DNA of 64,000 bases from Sulfurovum sp. (lineage in GTDB: Bacteria; Campylobacterota; Campylobacteria; Campylobacterales; Sulfurovaceae): the NCBI GenBank assembly GCA_027063305.1, contig JAMORY010000032.1, positions 1 to 64,000 of the forward strand, in the 5' to 3' direction. The number at the start of each line of letters is the position of its first letter. The first letter of the stretch is position 1. Positions 1,679 to 64,000 of the stretch are shown in pieces. The position numbers were made by a program, and so were the translations under genes. The notes beneath the pieces are model-generated. The model did not search any database, was not told where the DNA came from, and saw nothing but the letters and a program-made list of their open reading frames with translations.

Positions 1679-1755
<77 letters not shown>

Positions 1756-7749: not shown

Positions 7750-10700
7750 TCATTCCCCTTTTTTATTCGCTTCCATCGTTGGTCTTGCACCTCTTGGTAC
7801 GACCATCCAGAACTTACGTATGGATGTTCGGGCATTGTCGAGGATCTCTTGGGCTTTTTTACTTCCGGTCTTCTCTACATAATCTTTAAGCAGACGTTTA
7901 AGCTCGAACATCTCAAAATCCCACTCATCGGTATCGATACGGATCGCTTCGACAAGTTCAGGGTTGAGCTTTTCATAGAACGTTCCCTCTTCATCATAAA
8001 CGAATGCTTTACCGCCTGTCATACCCGCACCGAAGTTCACACCTGTCTTACCAAGAATAACCACCGTACCACCGGTCATATATTCACAAGGGTGATCTCC
8101 CGTACCTTCCACAACGGTTGTCGCACCGGAGTTACGTACGGCAAAACGCTCACCTACTTGTCCTGTAATATAGAGCGTACCGCCGGTCGCTCCGTAAAGA
8201 CATGTATTTCCACCTAGTGCGAACTCAGGCCCTGATTTGGATGAAGTGATAACGATACGCCCACCGTTCATCCCTTTACCGATATAGTCGTTTCCTGCAC
8301 CATTGACATTGATAGTCACACCTTTAGAGAGGAAAGCACCTAGCGATTGCCCTGCGACACCTGTAAGGTTAATGGTGATGGTGTCTTCAGGAAGCCCTTC
8401 GTTACCGTGTCTTTCTGCGATCTCTCCTGAAATTCTCGTACCGAAACTTCTGTTGAGGTTGGTGATCTCTTTATTCAAAACGACCGGTGTGCTCGGGTCT
8501 TCAATAGTCGGCATCAACTCCGCAACAATCACTTTTTCATACTCGTTCTGATCGTACGGTTCATTGAACGGCACTTGACAGGTGTCGACACCCTCTACCT
8601 TTTGGATGAGCTGTTCAAGGTCGAACTTCTTCGCGAACTCATCGTCGATCACCTTAAGAAGCTCTGTCTTACCTACGATCTCTTCAAGGCTTCTGTAACC
8701 TAGTGAAGCGAGGATCTCACGTACCTCTTCGGCAAGTAGGGTGAAGTAGTTGATCACCTTCTTCACGTTCCCTTTAAAGCGTGCTCTAAGATGCGGATCT
8801 TGTGTTGCGACCCCTACGCCACAGGTATTGAGGTGACAAACACGCAGCATCATACATCCAACAATTACCAATGCACCCGTACCGAACGCATACTCTTCCG
8901 CTCCGAAGATCGCTGCTTTGACGACATCGAGTGCCGTTTTAAGCCCCCCGTCGGTCTCGATACGTACTTGTCCTCTTAGGTTATTGGCTTTAAGAGCATT
9001 GTGCGCCTCTACCAATCCAAGCTCCCACGGGTTTCCTGCGAAACGGATAGAACCGATCGGTGCGGCACCTGTACCACCGTCTCCACCGGAGATAATGATC
9101 TTGTCGGCATACGCTTTGGCAACACCTGCTGCGATCGTTCCTACGCCTGCTGTAGAGACAAGTTTGACCGCGACTTTCGCGTTAGGATTGATCTGCTTCA
9201 TATCAAAGATCAACTGTGCAAGATCTTCGATGGAGTAGATGTCGTGGTGTGGCGGTGGTGAAATAAGCGTGACACCCGGTTTGGTGTATCTGAGCTTCGC
9301 AATAAGCGGTGATACCTTACTTCCCGGAAGCTGTCCACCCTCACCCGGCTTCGCACCTTGTGCCACTTTGATCTGGATCTCTTCTGCTGAACGCAAATAC
9401 TCCGGTGTTACCCCGAAACGTCCTGAAGCGATCTGTTTGATCTTGGAGTTCTTAATGGTCCCGTAACGCTCTGGGTCTTCTCCACCCTCACCGGAGTTCG
9501 ATTTACCGCCAAGTGTATTGAGCGCTTCTGCTAAAACTTCATGTGCTTCCTGAGAGATGGATCCCATGGACATCGCCGCAGATGAGAAACGTTTGAGGAT
9601 CTCTTCGATAGGCTCTACTTCATCGATACTGATAGGCTCTTTTGGCGAATTGAGCTCAAAGAAGTCACGGATGAACTTCTTATCACGCTTATCGATCATC
9701 TCAGAGAGCTTTTTATAATCCTCTTTGCTTCCTGTCGCTGCGACAGTCTGGATAGCCGTGATGACAGGTCGTGAGAAGTCATGGTACTCTTCACCTTTTT
9801 TATACTTATAGAACCCACCTTTATAAAGTACGTTCTTCTTCCCTTCGAAGGCATCGGTAAAGGCACGGCTGTGATAGGTGTTCAGACGCTGATCGATATC
9901 GTCGTACCCTAGACCTTTGAGAAGTCCTACCGAACCGGCAAAACACTCATTGACGATCTCATCGCTCAAACCGATCACATCAAAGAGTTTGGAGTTTCTA
10001 TATGATGAGATAGTAGAGATACCCATTTTGGACATAATCTTAAGCAGTCCCGCACCCATTGCACGTCTTAGACGTCTAAGCGTGGTAGGCATATCATCGG
10101 TCTCATCTTTCATCAACTGCTCTACTGTGTAGTAGAGAAGGTACGGGTAGACTGCTGCTGCACCATAACCGATCATACATGCAGCCGAATGAGGGTCGAA
10201 CACTTCACCCGTTGCAGCAACAATACTTACAAGGTGTCTGAGCTTCTGCTCGACAAGTACTTGGTTCAAGCGTCCGATCACCATAAGCATCGGGATCACT
10301 TTGGTCTTTTCCGAAAGATCACGATCATCAAGGATAACCGTTCTAATAGCATTGTCACGTACATCAGCAACAATCTTCTCGACCAATGATTCAAGACTTC
10401 CTTTGAGATCTTCCGTATAGGTTGTAGAGTAGCTTGCCACTTTGTATGCCGGATCATACTTCTCGTTCCCCTCGGTACCGAACTCTTGCAAAATAGCGAA
10501 TTTTTCCGCAGACATAACCGGAAGTACGGTCTTAAGACGCTTTGCATGCTCCGCATCATCACTTAGCACGTTTCTGATCTCACCAAAACCGGTGTTGAGA
10601 CTCGTTACGGTCTTTTCACGGATCGGATCTATCGGCGGGTTTGTCACCTGCGCGAATTTTTGCTTGAAGAAGTCCGTAAAGTTACGTTGTTCGGTCGAGA

Positions 10701-12168
10701 ATGCGGCAATAGGCGTATCATCCCCCATAGCACCTGTGGTCTCTTTACCTTCAAGTACCATCGGCTTGATCACCTCTCTCATCACTTCAAGTGTAAAGTT
10801 GAAATAACGCTGTTTGGCTTCCATCTCTTTATGGTCGCTTGAACACTTATCTACCTGTGTAGTAGGAACGAACTCTTGAAGATAGCTCATGTTCTCACTA
10901 AGCCATTTATTATACGGGTGCATTGATTTGAGGTAATCATCAATGTCATTCGACTTGAGTACCTTCCCGAACTTAAGGTCAACACCCATCATCTCACCCG
11001 ATTGCAAACGTCCACGCTCGACGATCTGCTCCTCAGGTACTTGAAGCACACCATACTCCGAAGTAATAAGGAGTCTGTTATCTGTCGTAATGATATATTT
11101 CGATGGTCTCAAACCGTTTCTGTCAAGTACACATCCGATGTAGCGACCGTCTGTCATACTCACAGCAGCCGGTCCGTCCCATGGTTCAAAACAAGTAGAA
11201 GCATACTCATAAAAAGCTCTTAGATCACTGTCCATCTGTGAAGCATTGTGCCATGGCGCAGGAATGAGCGAACGCGCCGCTTTAAAGAAGTCCACACCAT
11301 TGACACGGAGGAACTCCATAAAGTTATCAAGACTGGCAGAGTCCGACATACCGTCTTGAATGACATCCATTAGACGTGTCATCTCTTCATCGGTAAAGAC
11401 TTCGGACTTCACCGCTGCCATTTTGGCTTTGACATTGAAACGGTTGGCAGTGACCGAGTTGATCTCACCGTTGTGTGCGATCATACGGAATGGCTGCGCC
11501 AGTCTCCACTCAGGCAGTGTGTTAGTTGAGAAACGCTGGTGGAAGAGACAGAAAGAGATCTTGAAGTTCTCATCGGCAAGATCCTGATAGAACTCTTTGA
11601 TGTGCGTTGGCATTACCAACCCTTTATAGGAGACCACTTTGCTTGAGAATGACGGGATGTAGAAATCTCTGTCATCTTTTAGCGCATGTTCGATCTCTTT
11701 TCGGGAGAGGTAGACGAGTGCATCGAAACGCTCGGAAGCTACCACACCATTTGGTGCGACAAAGACCTGTTTAATGGTTGGAAGTGTCGACAAGGCTTGC
11801 TCACCGAGTGCATTGGTATCGACCGGTACGGTACGTGTATAGATCACTTCAAGATCATTGTTGTTACACACTTTTTCGATCATGTCAAAGTCACTCTCAT
11901 TACGAGAGAAGACCATAGCTACGGCATACTGCTCCGGAAGATCGACACCCTCTTTTTCTGCTACGTACGAGAAGAAAGAGCGTGGTAGAGAGAGAAGCAG
12001 TCCTGACCCATCACCCGTTTTTCCGTCCGCTGCAATCGCACCTCTGTGCATCATACGCGAAAGCGATGTTACGGCATCCTCAAGATTTTGATGTGTCGGT
12101 GTGTTATCGATAGAACAAAGCAGCCCGAACCCGCAGTTGTCCTTGAACGAGGTATATAGATCTCTCAT
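7750..12168 (-). CDS. gltB: Glutamate synthase large subunit
   Basis: This makes two glutamates from glutamine and 2-oxoglutarate, the main route of ammonia assimilation together with glutamine synthetase. The 1472 residues follow the family order: N-terminal class II glutaminase domain with nucleophile in NCGFGLLC, a central linker, an FMN-binding synthase barrel (GEGGEDPERYG, PPPHHDIYSIEDLAQLI, GGDGGTGAAP) and a C-terminal beta-helix rich in G (GAFLSKG to GGKAFVYDEEG). The iron-sulfur cluster motif CMMLRVCHLNTC (C-x5-C-x4-C) is intact. The nucleophilic Cys is about 12 residues in, so the N-terminus must be processed or the start lies later. The small subunit gene gltD is not adjacent. Confidence 0.97.
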   Translation of the reverse strand: MRDLYTSFKDNCGFGLLCSIDNTPTHQNLEDAVTSLSRMMHRGAIAADGKTGDGSGLLLSLPRSFFSYVAEKEGVDLPEQYAVAMVFSRNESDFDMIEKVCNNNDLEVIYTRTVPVDTNALGEQALSTLPTIKQVFVAPNGVVASERFDALVYLSRKEIEHALKDDRDFYIPSFSSKVVSYKGLVMPTHIKEFYQDLADENFKISFCLFHQRFSTNTLPEWRLAQPFRMIAHNGEINSVTANRFNVKAKMAAVKSEVFTDEEMTRLMDVIQDGMSDSASLDNFMEFLRVNGVDFFKAARSLIPAPWHNASQMDSDLRAFYEYASTCFEPWDGPAAVSMTDGRYIGCVLDRNGLRPSKYIITTDNRLLITSEYGVLQVPEEQIVERGRLQSGEMMGVDLKFGKVLKSNDIDDYLKSMHPYNKWLSENMSYLQEFVPTTQVDKCSSDHKEMEAKQRYFNFTLEVMREVIKPMVLEGKETTGAMGDDTPIAAFSTEQRNFTDFFKQKFAQVTNPPIDPIREKTVTSLNTGFGEIRNVLSDDAEHAKRLKTVLPVMSAEKFAILQEFGTEGNEKYDPAYKVASYSTTYTEDLKGSLESLVEKIVADVRDNAIRTVILDDRDLSEKTKVIPMLMVIGRLNQVLVEQKLRHLVSIVAATGEVFDPHSAACMIGYGAAAVYPYLLYYTVEQLMKDETDDMPTTLRRLRRAMGAGLLKIMSKMGISTISSYRNSKLFDVIGLSDEIVNECFAGSVGLLKGLGYDDIDQRLNTYHSRAFTDAFEGKKNVLYKGGFYKYKKGEEYHDFSRPVITAIQTVAATGSKEDYKKLSEMIDKRDKKFIRDFFELNSPKEPISIDEVEPIEEILKRFSSAAMSMGSISQEAHEVLAEALNTLGGKSNSGEGGEDPERYGTIKNSKIKQIASGRFGVTPEYLRSAEEIQIKVAQGAKPGEGGQLPGSKVSPLIAKLRYTKPGVTLISPPPHHDIYSIEDLAQLIFDMKQINPNAKVAVKLVSTAGVGTIAAGVAKAYADKIIISGGDGGTGAAPIGSIRFAGNPWELGLVEAHNALKANNLRGQVRIETDGGLKTALDVVKAAIFGAEEYAFGTGALVIVGCMMLRVCHLNTCGVGVATQDPHLRARFKGNVKKVINYFTLLAEEVREILASLGYRSLEEIVGKTELLKVIDDEFAKKFDLEQLIQKVEGVDTCQVPFNEPYDQNEYEKVIVAELMPTIEDPSTPVVLNKEITNLNRSFGTRISGEIAERHGNEGLPEDTITINLTGVAGQSLGAFLSKGVTINVNGAGNDYIGKGMNGGRIVITSSKSGPEFALGGNTCLYGATGGTLYITGQVGERFAVRNSGATTVVEGTGDHPCEYMTGGTVVILGKTGVNFGAGMTGGKAFVYDEEGTFYEKLNPELVEAIRIDTDEWDFEMFELKRLLKDYVEKTGSKKAQEILDNARTSIRKFWMVVPRGARPTMEANKKGE

Positions 12169-12358
12169 ATTTCCAACCTTAAAAAATAGAATAGTTACAC
12201 AGATAAGGACTGTGTGAAATGGGGACGATTATACTTAAAAGTACGTTAGAATTACATTAATAGCGGCGTTTGCGGCGTATTGAGATGGTAAGGAGGTAAC
12301 ATACTCTTAATCTGAATCTGACTATAATTTTCACTACCATTTCCAAGAAAGGATCGGC

Positions 12359-12976
12359 ATCAAAGGGTTTATACTTAGCGTTAGAAACGCCAAGAACGAA
12401 GACAGCATCGCACGTATCTTAAGTGAACACCATATACGAACCTATTACCGGTTCTTCGGCGCACGACACTCGATATTGCAACTTGGAAATCTCATTGACT
12501 TCGAGATTGAGGGGGAGGATGGACGTTTTCTGCCCCGTTTACGTTCCCTCTCTCATATAGGATTTCCTTGGCTCTTTGAGCGGAACCGGCTTCTACTCTG
12601 GCACAACTTCATTCAAAAATTCGACCCTCACCTTCAAGAGGCCGACGAGATAGACCCTTTTTACTTCCATCTTCTTTTGCAGGCAGCCAAACGATGGAAG
12701 AAGCAGAACCCCAAACGCATCATATGCGAAAGCTATATCGCCCTACTCGACCATGAAGGGAGACTCTACCCTGAAGAGCACTGCTATATCTGTGAGGGAC
12801 GTATTGAAGAGGAGATCGCATTGATGCAGGCGTTCAAACCGGCACACCCACGCTGTATCTACAGTCCTGCACTCCCTTCAAAGAAGATCTTCGATCTTTT
12901 CAGAAGCCACAAAGCGACCTTTCTCGATGATCACGAGATAGATCTGCTCTATGAAGTTGTGATGAAAGGCTTCTAA
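12359..12976 (+). CDS. recO: DNA repair protein RecO, apparently starting at an ATC codon
   Basis: RecO helps load RecA in gap repair. The frame from 12359 gives 205 residues, the usual length in Campylobacterota, and begins (after the start) KGFILSVRNAKNEDSIARIL, the family's N-terminal beta-barrel. Conserved pieces follow: RFFGARHSILQLG, NPKRIICESYIALLDHEGRL and a CYIC zinc-type pair. No ATG, GTG or TTG lies between the upstream stop at about 12309 and this region. The first standard-type start is TTG at 12476, which would remove the N-terminal barrel. An AAGAAAGGA ribosome site sits correctly before ATC at 12359-12361. It overlaps the convergent neighbour by four bases. Confidence 0.82.
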   Translation: MKGFILSVRNAKNEDSIARILSEHHIRTYYRFFGARHSILQLGNLIDFEIEGEDGRFLPRLRSLSHIGFPWLFERNRLLLWHNFIQKFDPHLQEADEIDPFYFHLLLQAAKRWKKQNPKRIICESYIALLDHEGRLYPEEHCYICEGRIEEEIALMQAFKPAHPRCIYSPALPSKKIFDLFRSHKATFLDDHEIDLLYEVVMKGF

Positions 12977-15023: not shown

Positions 15024-15055
15024 GCTATCCTCTTTTTTAGGGGAAAAAGGATAGC
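15024..15055 (-). terminator. Hairpin terminator downstream of the yjdM gene
   Basis: GCTATCC at 15024-15030 pairs with GGATAGC at 15049-15055, extended by TTTTT/AAAAA after a two-base bulge. It lies about nine bases beyond the stop codon of the minus-strand gene. Confidence 0.6.
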
Positions 15056-15459: not shown

Positions 15460-15942
15460 CTACTCAACCAGCTTCATCCGTGCAATCAGTCCTACGGTAC
15501 TGGTATAGCCCACCTCCGTAAAGCGTAGCTTACCCTTGGCATCGTAAATGAAGGTCGTAGGAAAGACCTTGATATTAAAACGCTTCGCCCACTCCCCATT
15601 GCTGTCATTATATACCTTAAAGTGCAGATCATATTTTTTCATATATGCTTGGAGATCACTATCTGCACCCGAATTGATCGCAATAGTGATAACATCATAC
15701 TGCTTGGAAATGCGGTCGATATTGGATGCTTCCATTTTACAAACCCTGCACCATGTCGCCCAGAAGTGGATAATGACCGGATGGGTGGGTTCGAAGCGGT
15801 AACGTGCACCATCCAAGAGTGTGAGTGTGCTTTGAGGCAGTCTGTCGTTCGTTAATTCAGGCTGCCTGAGATAACTGATGATATTTGTCAATATAAAAAC
15901 GGATACGCTTAAGAGAAGTAACTCTTTGAGTATCTTTTTCAT
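15460..15942 (-). CDS. Membrane-anchored thioredoxin-like (TlpA/ScsD type) protein
   Basis: From the ATG at 15942 this is 160 residues: one N-terminal membrane anchor (LKELLLLSVSVFILTNIISYL), then a thioredoxin fold facing the periplasm with redox motif WCRVC after IIHFWAT and the cis-proline strand KVFPTTFIYD. It probably reduces or relays disulfides, for example in cytochrome c maturation or metal resistance. I prefer this start because its ATG overlaps the TGA of the upstream kinase gene in the form ATGA, which suggests translational coupling. An alternative ATG at 15963 adds seven residues. Confidence 0.85.
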   Translation of the reverse strand: MKKILKELLLLSVSVFILTNIISYLRQPELTNDRLPQSTLTLLDGARYRFEPTHPVIIHFWATWCRVCKMEASNIDRISKQYDVITIAINSGADSDLQAYMKKYDLHFKVYNDSNGEWAKRFNIKVFPTTFIYDAKGKLRFTEVGYTSTVGLIARMKLVE

Positions 15943-18257: not shown

Positions 18258-21200
18258 ATGACCATTTCTCCACGGTACTTTATGATCCTAATCCTCCTCA
18301 CCTCTCAAGGTGAGGCACAATATACTCCCAAAAACCAACAGCCGATACAACATTCAAAAGAGAATGAACATTTTGCACCTATCGATCGACGATGTCCTAA
18401 AGATCAGAAATGGACGGATGCCAATCTTGAAAAATGGCTCCATCTTAGCGGCAAAAGACTTCACCAACTGAAAGTCGTGCGTGCTCTGGACAATCAGGCT
18501 CTCTGTACATTGCCGGCAAAGACACTTGCACGTGCACTCTCAAAAGTTGAGAACCCTCCCCGACCGGACAAGCCTGATGCTGCAATGCAATTTCGTATGG
18601 AACAGTTGAGCGTCAACGGTGTGGTCAGACCTGATGGACTTATCAATGCGATGAAGCAGCTTGACAGAATTGAGTCATTTACACAGCAGTTCATCCAAAA
18701 ACAAGCTAAGACCATTAGTGTGTCACGTGATAACTGGGTACCACTTGGTCCAGGGAATATCGGAGGAAGGATCAGAACACTATGGGTACATCCTAAAGAC
18801 CCAAATCTGCTTTTTGCAGGTAGTGTCGGCGGTGGTATCTGGAAAAGTACGGATGGAGGAGCCAACTGGCATGCTGTCGATGATTTTATGGCCAGTCTTG
18901 CTGTCACATCCATTGTTGCAGATCCTCGCACAACAGATGACATTGCTACGACCGTACTCTATGCCGCAACAGGTGAAGGGGTTTATAATATCGATGCACT
19001 CAGAGGGTATGGGCTATTCAAGTCCGTCGATGGTGGTGAGACATGGCAACATCTTCCATCTACAGATCCGACCACGGAAGATAGTGACTGGTACTACGTC
19101 AACCGTATTGCGATCAATCATGACGGTGTTATGATCGCCGTAGCGAGAAGCAATGCTGTCTTTACATCCAGTGATGATGGGGATACATGGTCAAAAAGTG
19201 AACCCGGCCCCAACTGGTACACTGTCATGGAGGATGTCAAGTTCGATCCTAATGACGATAGTAAAGCGATCGTAGGTTCGGTGAACGGGAACTGCTACTA
19301 TACCACAGATACAGGAACTACTTGGACAGAATCCAATATTGTCGATGCATCGGATTCATGGTTGAGCGGAAGGGTCGAACTCTCATATGCTGCTTCCACT
19401 GCAAATAAGATATATGCCTCTGTAGACAACAATAACGGTGAGATATACCGATCTGATGATGGTGGTGTCACATGGGAGCTGGTGGACACCCCTGAGCATC
19501 TTGGAAATCAAGGGTGGTATGCCAATGCGATCTGGGTCGACCCTACAGATGATGCACATCTTGTTATTGGTGGTCTCGACCTCTATCAAACAACCGATGC
19601 AGGAGATAACTGGACGAAGATCTCTACATGGTGGCTCTCCCCGAACTCTCCTCATGCAGACCACCATGCGATCGTTAGTGATCCAGGATACAATGGGGAT
19701 AGTGACAAAAGAGTCTATATTACAAATGACGGCGGGCTTTATAAAGCTGATGACATTACCGCTACTGATGACTCCGATGATACAGACAATGGTTGGGAGA
19801 ATATCAACAACGGCCTTGCCGTAACACAGTTCTATGGTGCCGCTGCACTTACCGGTTCGCGCATTACAGGAGGGACACAAGATAACGGTACCCTTTTAAA
19901 TATCGATATCAACAATAGCTCATGGGATAAGGTATTTGGTGGAGATGGCGGATTCTCTGCAACATCCACACAAGTAACCGATGGTGAGTATTACTACTTT
20001 GGGGAGTATGTCTACCTTCAGATACACCGATCGGACAATGGTGCAGGCAGTAGCTACATTTATGAGAACGGTCTGGATGATGCAGGAGACAATGCCAACT
20101 TCATCGCACCTTTTGTTATGGACCCCAACGATAACAACACCATGCTTGCCGGAGGAGAAAGTCTATGGAGAAGTACCAATGTCAGTACAGAAGATGAAAA
20201 TGATATCAACTGGACAAAGATCAAAGATCCTGTTGACGGAACAAAAATAAGTCAAATAGCTATTGCAGAGGGGGATTCCGATCTTATTCTTGTAGGCTAT
20301 AACAACGGAAGTATCTATAAGACGACAAACGGTACAGCGGTCTCACCTACATGGACACAGATACATGATGACGTCTCTAAACATGTTCTTGCACTACTGA
20401 TAGACAAAGATGACCATGACATATTGTATGCAGGATGGGGAGGATTCGACTCGGACAATCTTCAAAAGTCTGATGATGGAGGGAATTCCTGGAATACTAT
20501 CAGTGATGCCCTTCCCGATGTACCGATGAGAACCATAGAAAGACACCCCACACGTTCGGATTATCTCTATGTAGGAACGGATGTCGGTCTCTTTACCAGT
20601 GAAGACCAAGGTGGTACATGGCTTACGGTAGACAAAGGCCCAGCCAATGTATCTGTTGAGAAACTCTTCTGGTATGACGTGGTACATGGCTTACGGTAGA
20701 CAAAGGCCCAGCCAATGTATCTGTTGAGAAACTCTTCTGGTATGACAATGAGACATTAGTCGCAGCAACACATGGACGAGGTCTTTTCAGAGCCAAGATC
20801 GAACTTGAACCATGTGAGGAAGTACGCAGATTACTCAACGCTTACCACTGGACACTTGTAAGTTTTCCATGTGATACGGGAGATAATGGGGTAGAGGCAC
20901 TACTGGGAAAAGCGTTGGGTACCTATGGGAACAGTGATGACTGGGTCATGTATGAGCAGACAGGTGAAGATAACTATATCGGGGGCAATACAGCAAAACG
21001 TATGCTTGATGCCAATGATACTGTCGAACCGGGTAAAGGCTACTGGATCATTACTGCAACCGATAGGAATATGACGATAGACCATACCCTTTCAGGTTTG
21101 GCTTTCACCTCTGAACGGAATGCATCAGACTTCGATATTACCAACAGCTACTTCACGACAGTACATGTACGTCAGCTTCCCAATTCGGATGAGAATGGTA

Positions 21201-21517
21201 CGAAAAAAGTGATGTTAGGGAATCCGTTCCCTCGTTCAGTACATCTTAATAATATCTATTTTTCCCATGATGATGCAAATAGTAGCTATAATCCGATGAG
21301 CGATAATAATGATAGCGATGAAAACCCTAATGCTCCATATATTGACGGTACTGTCTATACTTTTGATAAACAGAGTACCAATAACGTGGACTATGAAGCG
21401 ATCAGCCCTGATACACCAGGGTTCTCAAACTTGATCTCACCTATGAGAGGATTTTTTATTATTCTAAAATCAGGAAGTACGGGAAGCAACTATATGGCTT
21501 TCCCTTATGAGAAGTAG
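18258..21517 (+). pseudogene. Large secreted Asp-box (BNR) repeat protein, frameshifted by a 68-bp duplication
   Basis: The ATG at 18258 starts a signal peptide (YFMILILLTSQGEAQ) and then a beta-propeller type protein with at least eight Asp-box motifs of the form S-x-D-x-G-x-T-W: STDGGANW, SVDGGETW, SSDDGDTW, TTDTGTTW, SDDGGVTW, TTDAGDNW, SDDGGNSW and SEDQGGTW. These occur in sialidases, VPS10 and Ycf48-like proteins. The first frame stops at 20697-20699. The stop is caused by an exact 68-bp tandem copy (20611-20678 and 20679-20746). Removing one copy joins both parts into one frame of 1063 residues ending at 21517. The second part (LVAATHGRGLF to the end) contains a further cell-surface-like beta domain. 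No sialidase active site is evident. Confidence 0.8.
20611..20746. repeat. Exact 68-bp tandem direct repeat inside the Asp-box gene
   Basis: Copy one is 20611-20678 and copy two is 20679-20746, both starting GTGGTACATGGCTTACGG and ending TTCTGGTATGAC. I see no difference between them. Because 68 is not a multiple of three, the second copy shifts the frame. Confidence 0.95.
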
Positions 21518-24946: not shown

Positions 24947-25191
24947 TAGATGCGTCCGATCATCTGGGCAAATGTACCTCGCTTGGCAACACGGCGGTTA
25001 TTCTCCTCAATTGCCTCTTTATTCTTCTCAATCCACTCCTCTTTCATCTTTTCCCGTATGATCCGCTCCAATTCACTCTCCAAAGTAGCGGAGAGGTTGA
25101 TCTTATAGGCTTTCGCTTTGGCGATCAGATCACTGTTGACAGAAATATTCGTCGCTTTCTTGGGTGCGTCTATGCTGTAAATATGACTCAT
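24946..25191 (-). CDS. ccdA: CcdA-family antitoxin
   Basis: An 81-residue protein with an N-terminal ribbon-helix-helix part (KKATNISVNSDLIAKAKAYKINLSATLESELERII) and a charged C-terminal tail ending RRVAKRGTFAQMIGRI. The tail is the toxin-binding segment of CcdA proteins, where a FxxxxR pattern is conserved. It is expected to neutralise the downstream CcdB and repress the operon. Confidence 0.88.
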   Translation of the reverse strand: MSHIYSIDAPKKATNISVNSDLIAKAKAYKINLSATLESELERIIREKMKEEWIEKNKEAIEENNRRVAKRGTFAQMIGRI

Positions 25192-25228
25192 ACGTATTCC
25201 TTATGCGTATATTGAGTGTATTGTAACA

Positions 25229-26023
25229 TTATTTCCAGTAGGTATCAAGCCTCACATTCCACCCCTTGCGCCATCGCTCTTCACCCCGTGCGGGCGGAGA
25301 GTTCTTGATGCGGCGGCTAAGCATCGCTTTGGCGGAGTCGGCAAAGGCTTTGTACTTATTTGGGTTGGTCTCATCAAGATGTTCAAGCACTTGCAGCAGC
25401 CCCCACCCCTGCCCTTTGTAGCGTTCGCTCTTAAGCGTTCCTTCACCCTTGAAGTTGGTGTAGTCTATGAGGATGTAAAGCCCTCTCTCATCGATGCTAC
25501 CGTCTTTGTTGTAGAGCATATGGTTAAAGCGCCGCTTGATCATTGCTGCTTTTTTCGGGTCATCGATGGTATCAAGCATTTGCGGCAGCGCTTTCATCAT
25601 CCGCCGAGCCATGAACATCGCCTGATAGTCCATCGTTTGCTTGAGGAAATTGAACAGCCGCATATAGTAGACACTCTTTTGCTTCTTCGCCCAAAAGAAC
25701 GCCTCTTTACTCTGCCATGGGAAATCACTCTGCGGTGTAATACCCTTGGGAAGTTTCACACCTCTTTCTTGCATATAGGTAAGCACCATCGGAAAGACCT
25801 CACGAAAACGCTCCGTATGTCCTTTGGGAAACCATATGAAATGCCCGATACCAAGCGAAGCAAAATCCTCTCCTTTGTTCCACCAGATAAGATACTTGTC
25901 TTTCCCCGCTCCTTCATTGAGCCACACTTTTTTGGCAATGAATTGTGCCTGCTCCTGTGTCAGTTTCAACGGTACGGCAATAAGCAGCCCAGATAGAAGC
26001 AATAGCGCTATTGCATGTTTCAT
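25229..26023 (-). CDS. Secreted protein of unknown function
   Basis: A 264-residue protein with a signal peptide (MKHAIALLLLSGLLIAVP). The mature N-terminus holds KVWLNEGAGKDKYLIWWNKGEDFASLGIGHFIWFPKGHTERF, which has the look of an enzyme site: an acidic residue near a small-residue loop, then GIGHFIWFPKG. The arrangement is faintly like lysozyme folds, but I would not assign that. Similar uncharacterised secreted proteins exist in Proteobacteria. It lies 13 bases after the Sel1-repeat gene, so they are likely co-transcribed. Confidence 0.6.
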   Translation of the reverse strand: MKHAIALLLLSGLLIAVPLKLTQEQAQFIAKKVWLNEGAGKDKYLIWWNKGEDFASLGIGHFIWFPKGHTERFREVFPMVLTYMQERGVKLPKGITPQSDFPWQSKEAFFWAKKQKSVYYMRLFNFLKQTMDYQAMFMARRMMKALPQMLDTIDDPKKAAMIKRRFNHMLYNKDGSIDERGLYILIDYTNFKGEGTLKSERYKGQGWGLLQVLEHLDETNPNKYKAFADSAKAMLSRRIKNSPPARGEERWRKGWNVRLDTYWK

Positions 26024-39461: not shown

Positions 39462-40303
39462 TGGCACTGATTAAACATTTTCCACACTATCTTAATGCAC
39501 GTAACGACAGAAAAATAAAAAAAGGAAGGTTACAGCTTGGCATAGAATTTGTTGGTATCTACTGGATGACATTAGAGGTGTTGGCAGAGCAAAAAGATTT
39601 TAAATATCCACTTGCAGACCTAGACATCTTAGCAGATGATTTTGGCACATCAATTCAAAAAGTACAACTTGTAATTACTCAATATGGATTATTTGAAATT
39701 GATCCTAATGAATAGTTCTTTTCTCCTGCACAAATCAAAGGACTAGAGCCATATCTTGAAAAACTTGAACATTACCGCCTAATGGGTATAAAAAGTGGAT
39801 TGGCACGAAAAAAGAAAACGCAAGAGCAAATAGAGAAGCTTAAAAAGTTGAGTCAGGGTGACTCAAATGAACTAGAGTTAAACGTAGGTTCAACATACGC
39901 TGAACAATTAACTAATACTACTAATAAACTAATTAATAAATCTAATAAACATACACACACAATAGATGAGTGGTTAGATGAATATTGTTTAGGCAAAACC
40001 CCTGCTTATAGAGCTTACATGATGAAACAAATCAATGAGCAGGATCCTATAGCTATCAAAACTTACAATGATTGGTACCAACAGCAAATTGAACAAGATC
40101 TCAAAGACGAGGAACAAAAAAAGATAGATACCTTTGACTACAACTTACTTGTAGGGCTATCACTTGGAGAAAAAACTATAAAACAAATTGTAGACGCAGG
40201 TAGTACCATCCACCTATTTTTTGACGATGGTACAGATGATTATAGTCAATCAAAAAAATCTTTATACGACTGGTACCAATTAAAACTGGAGGAAACAGCA
40301 TGA
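39461..40303 (+). pseudogene. Replisome-organiser-like gene interrupted by one in-frame TAG
   Basis: The first part (84 residues) begins MALIKHFPHYLNARNDRKIK and has the DUF4373 / Lin1244-like domain of phage and plasmid replication proteins, ending YGLFEIDPNE at TAG 39713-39715. The same frame continues without another stop: FFSPAQIKGLEPYLEKLEHY and MGIKSGLARKKKTQEQIEKL, which is the expected next part of the domain. Only the single TAG separates them. The whole frame would be 280 codons. The product is probably lost, unless the TAG is read through or is a sequencing error. Confidence 0.75.
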
Positions 40304-44410: not shown

Positions 44411-44791
44411 ATGGCTAGACCACGAAAAGCAGAGGAAGATAAAAGAGCTTATCGTACTACCGTATGGGCTAGTAGAGAGGAACATTTGATTATGCAAACA
44501 AGAGCTAGAGCTACTGGACTATCACTTAGCACCTACCTCCGTAATCTTGGATGTTCATATCCTATCAAAAGCAGAGCCGATCAATATCTACTCTCTTTGT
44601 TGGTATCTGCCAAAAATGAATTAGGCAGACAAGGAGGTCTTTTAAAATTGTACCTCTCTAAAACAGATAGAAAAGAGAATTTAGGAAGTAAGACTCCAGA
44701 GGATATTGATTACATTTTGGAGAGTATAGAGCAGAAACAAAATCATCTGATTTCTATAGCAGAGCAGGTGCTAAGGGAAATGAAAAAATGA
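44411..44791 (+). CDS. MobC/TraJ-like relaxosome accessory protein
   Basis: From ATG at 44411 this is 126 residues: MARPRKAEEDKRAYRTTVWA, SREEHLIMQTRARATGLSLS, TYLRNLGCSYPI. A strand-helix-helix of this kind with a T-L-S-x-Y/F-L-R segment is the ribbon-helix-helix of MobC and TraJ proteins, which bind oriT and recruit the relaxase. The TGA overlaps the relaxase ATG. An upstream GTG at 44399 is less likely as a start. Confidence 0.8.
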   Translation: MARPRKAEEDKRAYRTTVWASREEHLIMQTRARATGLSLSTYLRNLGCSYPIKSRADQYLLSLLVSAKNELGRQGGLLKLYLSKTDRKENLGSKTPEDIDYILESIEQKQNHLISIAEQVLREMKK

Positions 44792-46422
44792 TAGTCAAAC
44801 AAATTCCTAAAAAACAAGCAGGTAAAGGCTCATTTGGAGGTCTTGCCGATTACATCTTGGATAAAGCCAATGGCGGAGAAAAAGTCGATTGGATAGAAGC
44901 TAGCAATCTACCTTTTGAAGATATAGACAGCAATATTGCTTTTGTCCAGGAAGTACAAAAAATGAATGCCACAGCAAAGGGAGATCAAGTATTGCATTTT
45001 GTTTTTAGTTTCCAAGAGGGAGAGATCCCTAGCAGAGAAGTACAACATGATATAGAGGGTGAGTTTATCCGCACTCTTGGACTGGAAGATCATCATAGGA
45101 TCTCTGTAGCTCATAACAATACCAATAACTATCATGTGCATGTAGCGGTTAATATGATACACCCTGAGACGCATACGCTTGTAGATCCATATAGAAGTAA
45201 AATGAAACTCCAGAAAAAGGCAGCAGAATTGGAAGTAAAACATAAACTTCAAACCGATAACCACATACCAAACTATATCCTTGAAGAGCAAGGCATTAAA
45301 AAAGCTGCTGCCACCTCTCCTACTCCAGAAAAAATCAAAAGCCAAGAAATCCACTCTGGAGTAGATAGCCTTTTAACTTGGATCAAGGAGGAAGCCTTAG
45401 AGGACATCAAAGAGGTACTCAAAGATCCTAAATCATCCCTGGAGGATTTACACCAGGTATTAGCAGATTACAATCTGGAGATCAAGCCTAGAGGTAACGG
45501 TATTGTCATTGCAGACAAGACCAGGAAACTATTTGTAAAAGCCTCCGATGTTCACAGAGACTTATCCAAAGGTAAGCTTACTAAGAGGTTTGGAGAGTTC
45601 AAAACCTCTAAAATTACTACCACTCCAAAAAAGAAATTCGGCAGACCAGTAAACGAGTATTGGAAACGATACCAGGAACTATCTACACAGAAGAGATCCA
45701 CCAAAATAGAAGAGTTACGACTTGAAAAGTTAGCAAGAGAGACACTTAGAAAACAGATCAAAGAGAAATATGCAGCACGGATCCAAAAGATCCAAGCAGA
45801 TCCTCTTATCAATAAACGACACAAAGCAGAGGCAAGAAAAAAAGTCTATGCACAGCGTAAGGCAGAATTGGCAGCACTTACCAAGACATTTAGTGAAAAG
45901 CGTACAGAGATCTACTCCAGGACCAAACAGACATCCTACAAAGAGTACCTAATGGAATTGGCACTCTCTGGAGATGAGGGAGCATTAAAAGAACTCCGAA
46001 AACAGAAACAAGAGATCAAGCCAGATGATAAGGTACTGATGCACCCTAAGAAAAAAGTATCACACTCCATCTTTAAGAGTTTCATATCCAAGATTACCAA
46101 ACAGGGTAATGCAGTTTATGAAGTTGGTAAAAACTCAACTGTAACGGATAAGGGAGATCATCTTAAACTCTCTTTGGAATCCAAGAGTGATGAGGCAATG
46201 CTACAAGCCCTTAAAATGGCGGTAGCCAAGTATGGTAATACTTTGGATATTCAAGGCAATCTTGAATTTAAAAAGCGTGTACTCATGGTAACTCAAAAAT
46301 ACGAGCTAAAAGTGAACTTTGCAGATCCGCAGATGCAGAAGATCAAGAGTGAGATGCAGAAACAGACTCAAACACAAAATACAAACAAAACCAAAAACTC
46401 TAAGAAAGGAATATCAAGATAA
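44788..46422 (+). CDS. MOBP-family relaxase (TraI/VirD2-like)
   Basis: A 544-residue DNA-nicking enzyme that cuts oriT and pilots the strand. The catalytic residues fall at the same numbers as in RP4 TraI: Tyr22 (GLADYILD), Ser74 (LHFVFSF) and His116 in NYHVHVAVN, with His109 in SVAHNN. The nuclease domain spans about 1-260. A lysine-rich coiled-coil region and a C-terminal domain (residues about 420-520, AMLQALKMAVAKYGNTLDIQG, like LPD7-type) follow. The gene overlaps both neighbours. Confidence 0.93.
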   Translation: MIVKQIPKKQAGKGSFGGLADYILDKANGGEKVDWIEASNLPFEDIDSNIAFVQEVQKMNATAKGDQVLHFVFSFQEGEIPSREVQHDIEGEFIRTLGLEDHHRISVAHNNTNNYHVHVAVNMIHPETHTLVDPYRSKMKLQKKAAELEVKHKLQTDNHIPNYILEEQGIKKAAATSPTPEKIKSQEIHSGVDSLLTWIKEEALEDIKEVLKDPKSSLEDLHQVLADYNLEIKPRGNGIVIADKTRKLFVKASDVHRDLSKGKLTKRFGEFKTSKITTTPKKKFGRPVNEYWKRYQELSTQKRSTKIEELRLEKLARETLRKQIKEKYAARIQKIQADPLINKRHKAEARKKVYAQRKAELAALTKTFSEKRTEIYSRTKQTSYKEYLMELALSGDEGALKELRKQKQEIKPDDKVLMHPKKKVSHSIFKSFISKITKQGNAVYEVGKNSTVTDKGDHLKLSLESKSDEAMLQALKMAVAKYGNTLDIQGNLEFKKRVLMVTQKYELKVNFADPQMQKIKSEMQKQTQTQNTNKTKNSKKGISR

Positions 46423-47777: not shown

Positions 47778-47805
47778 ATGGCGGACAGTGAGGGATTCGA
47801 ACCCT
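47778..47805. repeat. Right attachment site (attR) within tRNA-Ser
   Basis: The 28 bases are identical to 29506-29533 and form the 3' end of the intact tRNA-Ser gene, including the T arm and the encoded CCA. Confidence 0.95.
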
Positions 47806-47869
47806 CGGTACCCTTACGAGTACGCATCCTTAGCAGGGATGTGGTTTCAGCCAACTCACCCAACTGTCC
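47779..47869 (-). tRNA. tRNA-Ser (anticodon GCT), CCA encoded; integration target
   Basis: On the minus strand GGACAGT (47869-47863) pairs with ACTGTCC at the 3' end, followed by discriminator G and encoded CCA. The anticodon loop CTGCTAA gives GCT, and a long variable arm marks a class II tRNA. The element inserted at its 3' end and kept the gene whole. Confidence 0.95.
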
Positions 47870-62791: not shown

Positions 62792-64000
62792 ATGCCAAAA
62801 CGCGAAGATATCAAAACCATTCTACTTATCGGATCAGGCCCTATCGTCATCGGACAGGCTTGTGAATTTGACTACTCAGGAACACAGGCGGCTAAAACGC
62901 TTAAAGAGCTCGGCTATCGTGTTGTACTTATCAACTCCAACCCTGCAACTATCATGACCGACCCGGAGTTCGCTCATAGAACCTACATCGAACCGATCAC
63001 CGAAGATGTGATCGCAAAGATCATCGAAAAAGAGAACGTCGATGCGATCCTTCCTACCATGGGTGGACAGACCGCACTTAACGTTGCGATGAGCATGTAT
63101 GAAAAAGGGATGCTTGAGAACGTTGAGTTCCTCGGTGCCAACCCTGCTGCGATCAAAAAAGGTGAGGACAGACAAGAGTTTAAAGAGGCGATGATCAAGA
63201 TCGGTATGGACCTGCCTATCTCCCAGTATGCCTATAACATGGATGAGGCGCTCGATGCTGCCAAGAAGATCGGATTCCCGCTGATTATCCGTGCATCCTA
63301 TACCCTTGCCGGAGGTGGTTCGGGTGTTGCTTATAACATGGATGAGTTCAAAGAGATCGTCAAAGGCGGACTTGAAGCCTCTCCTATCTCGGAGATCCTC
63401 ATCGAAGAGTCACTTCTAGGGTGGAAAGAGTATGAGATGGAAGTCATCCGTGACCGTGAGGACAACTGTATCATCGTCTGTTCCATCGAGAACTTCGACC
63501 CGATGGGTGTTCACACCGGAGACTCCATCACCATCGCTCCTGCACTTACACTGACAGACAAAGAGTATCAGCGTATGAGAGATGCCTCTTTTGCCATCCT
63601 AAGAGAGGTCGGGGTCGATACGGGAGGTTCTAACGTACAGTTCTCCATCAACCCTGAGACAGGTCGTATGATCGTCATCGAGATGAACCCTAGGGTCAGC
63701 CGTTCTTCCGCACTCGCTTCCAAAGCGACGGGATACCCTATCGCCAAAGTGGCAACCCTTTTGGCAGTCGGTTACACCCTCGATGAGATCACCAACGACA
63801 TTACAGGAACCCCTGCATCGTTCGAGCCGGTCATCGACTACATCGTGACCAAGCTTCCACGCTTTACCTTCGAGAAGTTCCCAATGGCAGATTCTACTCT
63901 GACAACGGCAATGAAATCCGTAGGGGAAGTGATGAGTATGGGGCGTACTTTCAAAGAGTCGTTCCAAAAAGCGCTCTGCTCTCTTGAAACGGGACTTACA
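62792..64000 (+). CDS. carB: Carbamoyl-phosphate synthase large subunit (partial, runs off the right edge)
   Basis: The first 403 codons of CarB, which makes carbamoyl phosphate for arginine and pyrimidines. The family start [36 protein letters not shown], the ATP-grasp motifs [15 protein letters not shown] and [20 protein letters not shown] are intact. About 680 further residues are expected. The ATG follows AAGGTGTAATTCCCC. Confidence 0.97.

Follow-up and report, generated by a model that had tools for sequence, protein, structure and literature searches.

Comparison with related genomes makes it close to certain that recO in this Sulfurovum genome starts at an AUH codon (AUC, AUU or AUA). 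In the window, by which we mean the whole stretch of 64,000 nucleotides that was analysed, the codon is the ATC at 12359 to 12361 on the forward strand. Our assignment relies on the window sequence and on the homologous codon of relatives. The comparison shows that the trait reaches beyond one genome; it is conserved in the lineage, being shared by most members of the genus and present in several other genera of the family.

The recO frame and its product

The recO frame is open on the forward strand from 12311 to a stop at 12974 to 12976 and is closed on its 5′ side by an in-frame TAA (12308 to 12310, forward strand). The ATC is followed from 12362 by KGFILSVRNAKNED, and the coding sequence that it opens (12359 to 12976, forward strand) comprises 205 codons and a stop. 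The initial annotation had held that no ATG, GTG or TTG precedes the conserved N-terminus of RecO; between the TAA and the TTG at 12476 to 12478, the first canonical codon in the frame, this is indeed the case. A start at that TTG would drop residues 1 to 39, in agreement with the loss of about 39 residues given in that annotation. The protein length of 205 residues from the ATC, also claimed there, was reproduced by computation and compares with the 204 positions of the NCBIfam RecO model NF010483. In a profile search this model scored 264.2 bits (cut-off 137), with residues 18 to 221 of the open frame on model positions 2 to 204, so that the protein belongs to the RecO family along its whole length. 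Model position 2 is the residue right after the ATC; since the match starts at this position, the ATC occupies the place of the family start. The Pfam model RecO_N_2 (PF13114) identified a RecO protein as well, with 85.4 bits against a cut-off of 27. In the C-terminal half, C142, C145, H163 and C166 are invariant in 30 aligned family members; we take this Cys/His set to have a zinc-site role. The RecO of H. pylori (HP0951) and of other epsilonproteobacteria belongs to the same divergent family, both by the family model and by a published account, which describes the H. pylori protein as a distant orthologue that takes part in recombination (PMC2475510).

recO has an AUH codon at its conserved N-terminus and a Shine–Dalgarno (SD) site before it, but lacks a canonical start that could be used; among the late-start ORFs of the window it stands apart. 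We surveyed 59 non-overlapping open reading frames of at least 110 amino acids, 13 of which have at least 20 codons before the first canonical start. Apart from recO, gltB and an ORF in a reverse frame at 15055, these were used in profile searches, ten in all. Four gave no match, one (39716 to 40303) had nothing beyond a marginal NCBIfam match that starts at residue 6 and scores 19.5 bits where 271 are required, and in five the best match does not extend upstream of the first canonical start. For the ORF at 15460, a lesser match (NF010625) extends 20 residues further back than the best one. The profile searches thus gave evidence of the same trait in none of the ten late-start ORFs, and among ORFs with at least 20 pre-start codons recO alone could be shown to reach its conserved N-terminus before any canonical start. 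We note that in the ORFs 20678 to 21517 and 25187 to 25996 (both forward strand) and 62876 to 63409 (reverse strand) 64 to 79 codons precede the first ATG, GTG or TTG, with no Pfam or NCBIfam match. A TraI/MobP-type relaxase (NF041893, 408.9 bits) is encoded at 44710 to 46422 on the forward strand, near a tRNA-Ser (47779 to 47869); the two possibly mark an integrated mobile element.

Upstream region and initiation machinery

A TATAAT at 12323 to 12328 (forward strand), 30 nt 5′ of the start codon, is the probable −10 element of recO, with its activity predicted. Across the family an exact TATAAT starting between −40 and −18 is found in 52 of 73 AUH recO genes, as against 2 of 68 ATG genes, and the gap from the end of the box to the start codon is mostly 21 to 33 nt in the AUH genes. 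The SD site AAGAAAGGA lies at 12345 to 12353 on the forward strand, its last A followed by 5 nt (TCGGC) and then the ATC, which upholds the earlier view of a properly spaced ribosome site. Both the site and its close spacing are conserved in AUH relatives, and most AUH genes have a TATAAT and an SD site just 5′ of the start. Within the genus, 35 of 57 AUH genes show an aligned spacing of 4 nt between SD and start; among the 9 ATG genes with an SD match, 7 show 10 nt. The predicted SD energy is −6.1 kcal/mol for AUH against −4.4 kcal/mol for ATG genes in the family; within the genus the predicted means are −7.5 kcal/mol (ATG) and −6.3 kcal/mol (AUH; p 0.011), the ATG spacing being longer. The idea that a weaker codon goes with a stronger SD was rejected, as it holds only family-wide and is reversed inside the genus. 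We saw no leader structure that would hide the recO SD (z-score −0.34), and codon 3, which is GGG in 26 of the 57 genus AUH genes, gave no firm pattern. In several outgroup recO genes (families f6, f8 and f20; loci L226, L230, L244, L249 and L255) a TATAAT- or TAAAAT-like box sits only a few nt before the ATG, an arrangement that would suit a leaderless mRNA.

The neighbouring open frame at 7750 to 12168 on the reverse strand is divergent from recO; by its protein sequence it is presumably gltB, the glutamate synthase large subunit. This gene adjoins 49 of the 57 genus AUH recO genes and was not found in the available stretch for the other eight. With gltB divergent, translational coupling to a forward-strand gene upstream is unavailable to recO. 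In the genus the gap between gltB and recO is mostly 160 to 200 nt where recO has AUH, and in most cases about 87 nt where it has ATG. Most ATG recO genes of the genus begin right after GATTATAC, which in AUH species lies about 100 nt upstream. The element that carries GATTATAC in the window (12216 to 12260, between the two genes) is conserved in AUH and ATG relatives alike; its minus-strand reading, GTATAATC, is possibly the −10 box of gltB.

Two loci, L027 (ATC, with an SD) and L035 (ATG), have recO genes that are 91.6% identical (around base 1490), and their similarity stops 11 nt before the start. As the upstream DNA differs, start codon and upstream DNA changed together in this pair. Two routes to one RecO dose suggest themselves, a good promoter with a weak start or a weaker promoter with ATG. 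On independent branches about three of five pairs agree with a link between AUH and TATAAT and about none oppose it (median p 0.25, not significant), five pairs being too few for significance.

The initiator tRNA-Met (1679 to 1755, forward strand; anticodon CAT) has the G-C-rich anticodon stem GGGCTCATAACCC and is the sole match to GGGCTNATNACCC in the genome; the search pattern was left open at the first anticodon base, and the one initiator-type stem found has CAT. The IF3 of the genome looks ordinary: it aligns over its full length with IF3 chains of known structure (5lmn, 160.6 bits). Altered decoding machinery was ruled out on these two grounds; presumably a standard initiator tRNA decodes AUC, subject to the usual scrutiny by IF3. 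We considered infC as an AUH comparator in the genus and set it aside, its start being TTG both in the genome of the window and in every relative whose locus the motif could read (15 of 30).

The start codon among relatives

The initial annotation had asked for a comparison with close relatives, and its case for the ATC is strengthened by the result: the codon is AUH in many independent assemblies, and ATG, GTG or TTG in the sampled genomes beyond the family. A contig search gave 11 relatives, whose homologous codon is ATC in eight, ATT in one, ATA in one and ATG in one, the ATG relative having 52% identity; 10 of the 11 are thus AUH. In the genus sample recO was matched in 70 of 78 genomes, and three matches without an N-terminus were dropped. 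The remaining 67 starts are ATC (49), ATT (5), ATA (3) and ATG (10), so that 57 of 67 are AUH. A separate start tally of 78 rows takes in the 11 contig-search loci. In the family, recO was matched in 151 of 175 genomes, and 80 of the 81 matches beyond the genus were read, a partial match (G109) being left out; the 147 starts comprise 73 AUH, 68 ATG, 4 GTG and 2 CTG. Family genera other than that of the window account for 16 AUH starts in 80. All of these fall in four genera: g2 (11 of 11), g6 (2 of 2), g10 (1 of 1) and g4, where the 11 starts are 2 AUH, 2 CTG, 1 GTG and 6 ATG; genera g3, g5, g7, g8, g9 and g11 together have none in 55. We note that the g4 loci L149, L151, L155 and L156 (ATA, CTG, ATT and CTG) show a variety of weak starts within one neighbouring genus.

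The order sample gave a recO match in 275 of 298 genomes. Outside the family, starts were read in 79 of about 246 matches, a non-random set from the better-scoring matches listed, covering 11 families; these are ATG (66), GTG (11) and TTG (2), with no AUH. Given none in these 79, the AUH start of recO is most simply derived within the window's family. A second recO with an ATC start (L228; G425 contig 72, 2473 to 3087) lies on a 3.1-kb contig of an assembly from another family. It closely resembles the recO of the window's genus, scoring 353.5 bits where the other copy in G425 scores 250.1; as a probable contaminant contig it was left aside from the order count.

That the true recO start lies elsewhere, whether upstream, through a frameshift from another frame or downstream with a shorter protein, we regard as highly improbable. 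Its support is that 10 of the 73 AUH genes carry an in-frame ATG, GTG or TTG upstream of the AUH codon, which makes an upstream start possible for those genes taken alone; in at least two of the ten (L028 and L051) this codon overlaps the −10 box or the SD. The other 63 have none in the interval from the upstream stop to the AUH codon, and in 14 of the 73 this interval is free even of codons a single base off ATG. Stops lie directly 5′ of the AUH codon, for example 2 to 5 codons off in L039, L060, L063, L067 and L018; in L039 a single codon separates stop and ATC. The conserved SD at the AUH codon and the divergent upstream gene also argue against a start elsewhere. A downstream start would lose the conserved N-terminus; moreover, the next canonical codon lies anywhere between codons 5 and 78, its position not conserved. 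Codons 2 to 39 of recO are under purifying selection, with a median dN/dS of 0.087 (65 pairs) compared with 0.053 (28 pairs) in the rest of the gene; pairs with unusable estimates were dropped and dS is near saturation. The survey of the 73 AUH genes rules out an upstream start, a frameshift or a downstream start as a general explanation. A sequencing error or a pseudogene, for which we found nothing in favour, can be practically dismissed, since the codon is AUH in so many genus genomes, four single-contig genomes included (ATC, ATT, ATC and ATC), and an internal stop is absent among the recO matches listed in the genus. Error in particular is ruled out by the relatives with AUH at the homologous codon, and it is very unlikely that reads would turn up ATG at 12359 to 12361.

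Selection on the codon and a proposed role

ATC is preferred among the 57 genus AUH starts, 49 of which use it where 22 (sd 3.4) would be expected from the Ile codon use of the same genes; the rows are related, hence the comparison is not a probability. One supported clade comprises 35 species, of which 34 have AUH and one has ATG. The AUH starts of this clade changed codon 4 times, compared with 2 to 12 changes at eight conserved Ile columns, thus at the low end yet inside the range. G is as scarce at the third base in 7 of 37 fourfold columns too, so its scarcity is not extreme by itself. At a start codon, however, G at this base would restore AUG, the codon that selection normally favours. 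For scale, a published survey reports one AUG-to-AUU switch reconstructed among 61,358 ancestral AUG starts (PMC5622118).

We consider it probable that the AUC is real and kept, and that IF3-sensitive weak initiation together with a good promoter sets a low, steady dose of RecO. Drift would instead have the ATG decay to ATH without penalty, little RecO being needed, and the codon passively retained without a role. We find this unlikely. It would fit the roughly 12 changes between AUH and canonical starts on the gene tree (a quick tree of 143 of the 147 rows with many weak forks) and the CTG or GTG starts also present in g4 and g7. Against it stand the purifying selection on RecO (dN/dS 0.05 to 0.09), the excess of AUC and the persistence of AUH in the 34 clade species, one change from ATG, at a median dS of 1.5 to 2.3. 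AUH, rather than GUG or UUG, is the form of start most rejected by IF3. This lends something to a regulated switch, in which RecO synthesis would follow the IF3 level or the state of translation and RecA loading would rise at limiting IF3 or in certain growth states. There are precedents: IF3 is reported to repress the GTC-started sigR of Streptomyces, infC* mutations raising SigR (PMC5472188), and the yield of the AUA-started ccpN of S. aureus is described as shifting with the medium from about 10% to 30% of AUG, highest in rich medium (PMC13009471). The TTG start of infC in the genus would make the classical IF3 loop at least weaker, and in the Streptomyces account a stress response through the sigR GTC codon could not be shown (PMC5472188). 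We therefore hold a switch to be possible though rather unlikely. A fixed low RecO dose is the best reading, an IF3-responsive dose being possible.

In the preferred reading of a low, steady dose, recO starts at AUC, which the ordinary CAU initiator tRNA would decode despite a mismatch at the third position. IF3 would reject most initiation complexes on AUH, leaving few proteins per recO mRNA, while the close SD and the consensus −10 promoter just upstream would keep the gene expressed. The net result would be a low and steady supply of RecO, the RecA-loading mediator. Given the precedents (PMC5472188, PMC13009471) it is plausible, as the initial annotation had proposed, that the ATC start limits RecO synthesis; the low yield, the control by IF3 and the benefit of the AUH start are what we infer. 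The AUH start most likely acts as a dose-setter, by analogy with infC, sigR and staphylococcal ccpN.

Conserved AUH starts are a known kind, to which recO adds. As in infC (AUU in E. coli, ATC in Streptomyces, AUA in S. aureus), the AUH start of recO stands behind an SD, and ATC is a documented start (PMC5472188, PMC13009471). Unlike infC, recO encodes no translation factor, so there is no built-in self-feedback, and infC of the window's genus itself uses TTG. Streptomyces sigR resembles recO in having a non-canonical start conserved in one genus, from which alone it is known according to that account, and in being misannotated by gene finders (PMC5472188). Its codon, however, is GTC, it has an antisigma partner to balance, and its IF3 dependence is proven whereas we infer that of recO. 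Staphylococcal ccpN (AUA) and cvfC1 (AUU) likewise combine a conserved AUH start with a strong SD, and AUU and AUA starts of this kind are reported to yield about 10% of AUG in S. aureus (PMC13009471). They are other genes in another phylum and have extended SD pairing, in contrast to the ordinary AAGGA/AGGAG of recO. For recO in this clade, our literature search turned up no description of a non-canonical start; the absence is weakly supported, as several result lists consisted mostly of unrelated papers.

It is a doubtful but possible extension that the lineage ties RecA loading to initiation fidelity, the consensus promoter and the IF3-rejected AUC giving a low-noise, low-dose RecO that rises as IF3 or fidelity drops. 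If true, recO would be strongly transcribed yet sparingly translated; this pairing is reported to give less noise at a cost and to be strongly depleted among genes (PMC6325141). Start prediction limited to ATG, GTG and TTG would truncate or misplace RecO. The family offers a natural series of AUH/AUG switches. To our knowledge, only a few conserved AUH starts are well documented in bacteria, namely infC and a handful of others; recO, with its AUC start in dozens of species, would extend them to a gene beyond translation and stress regulation.
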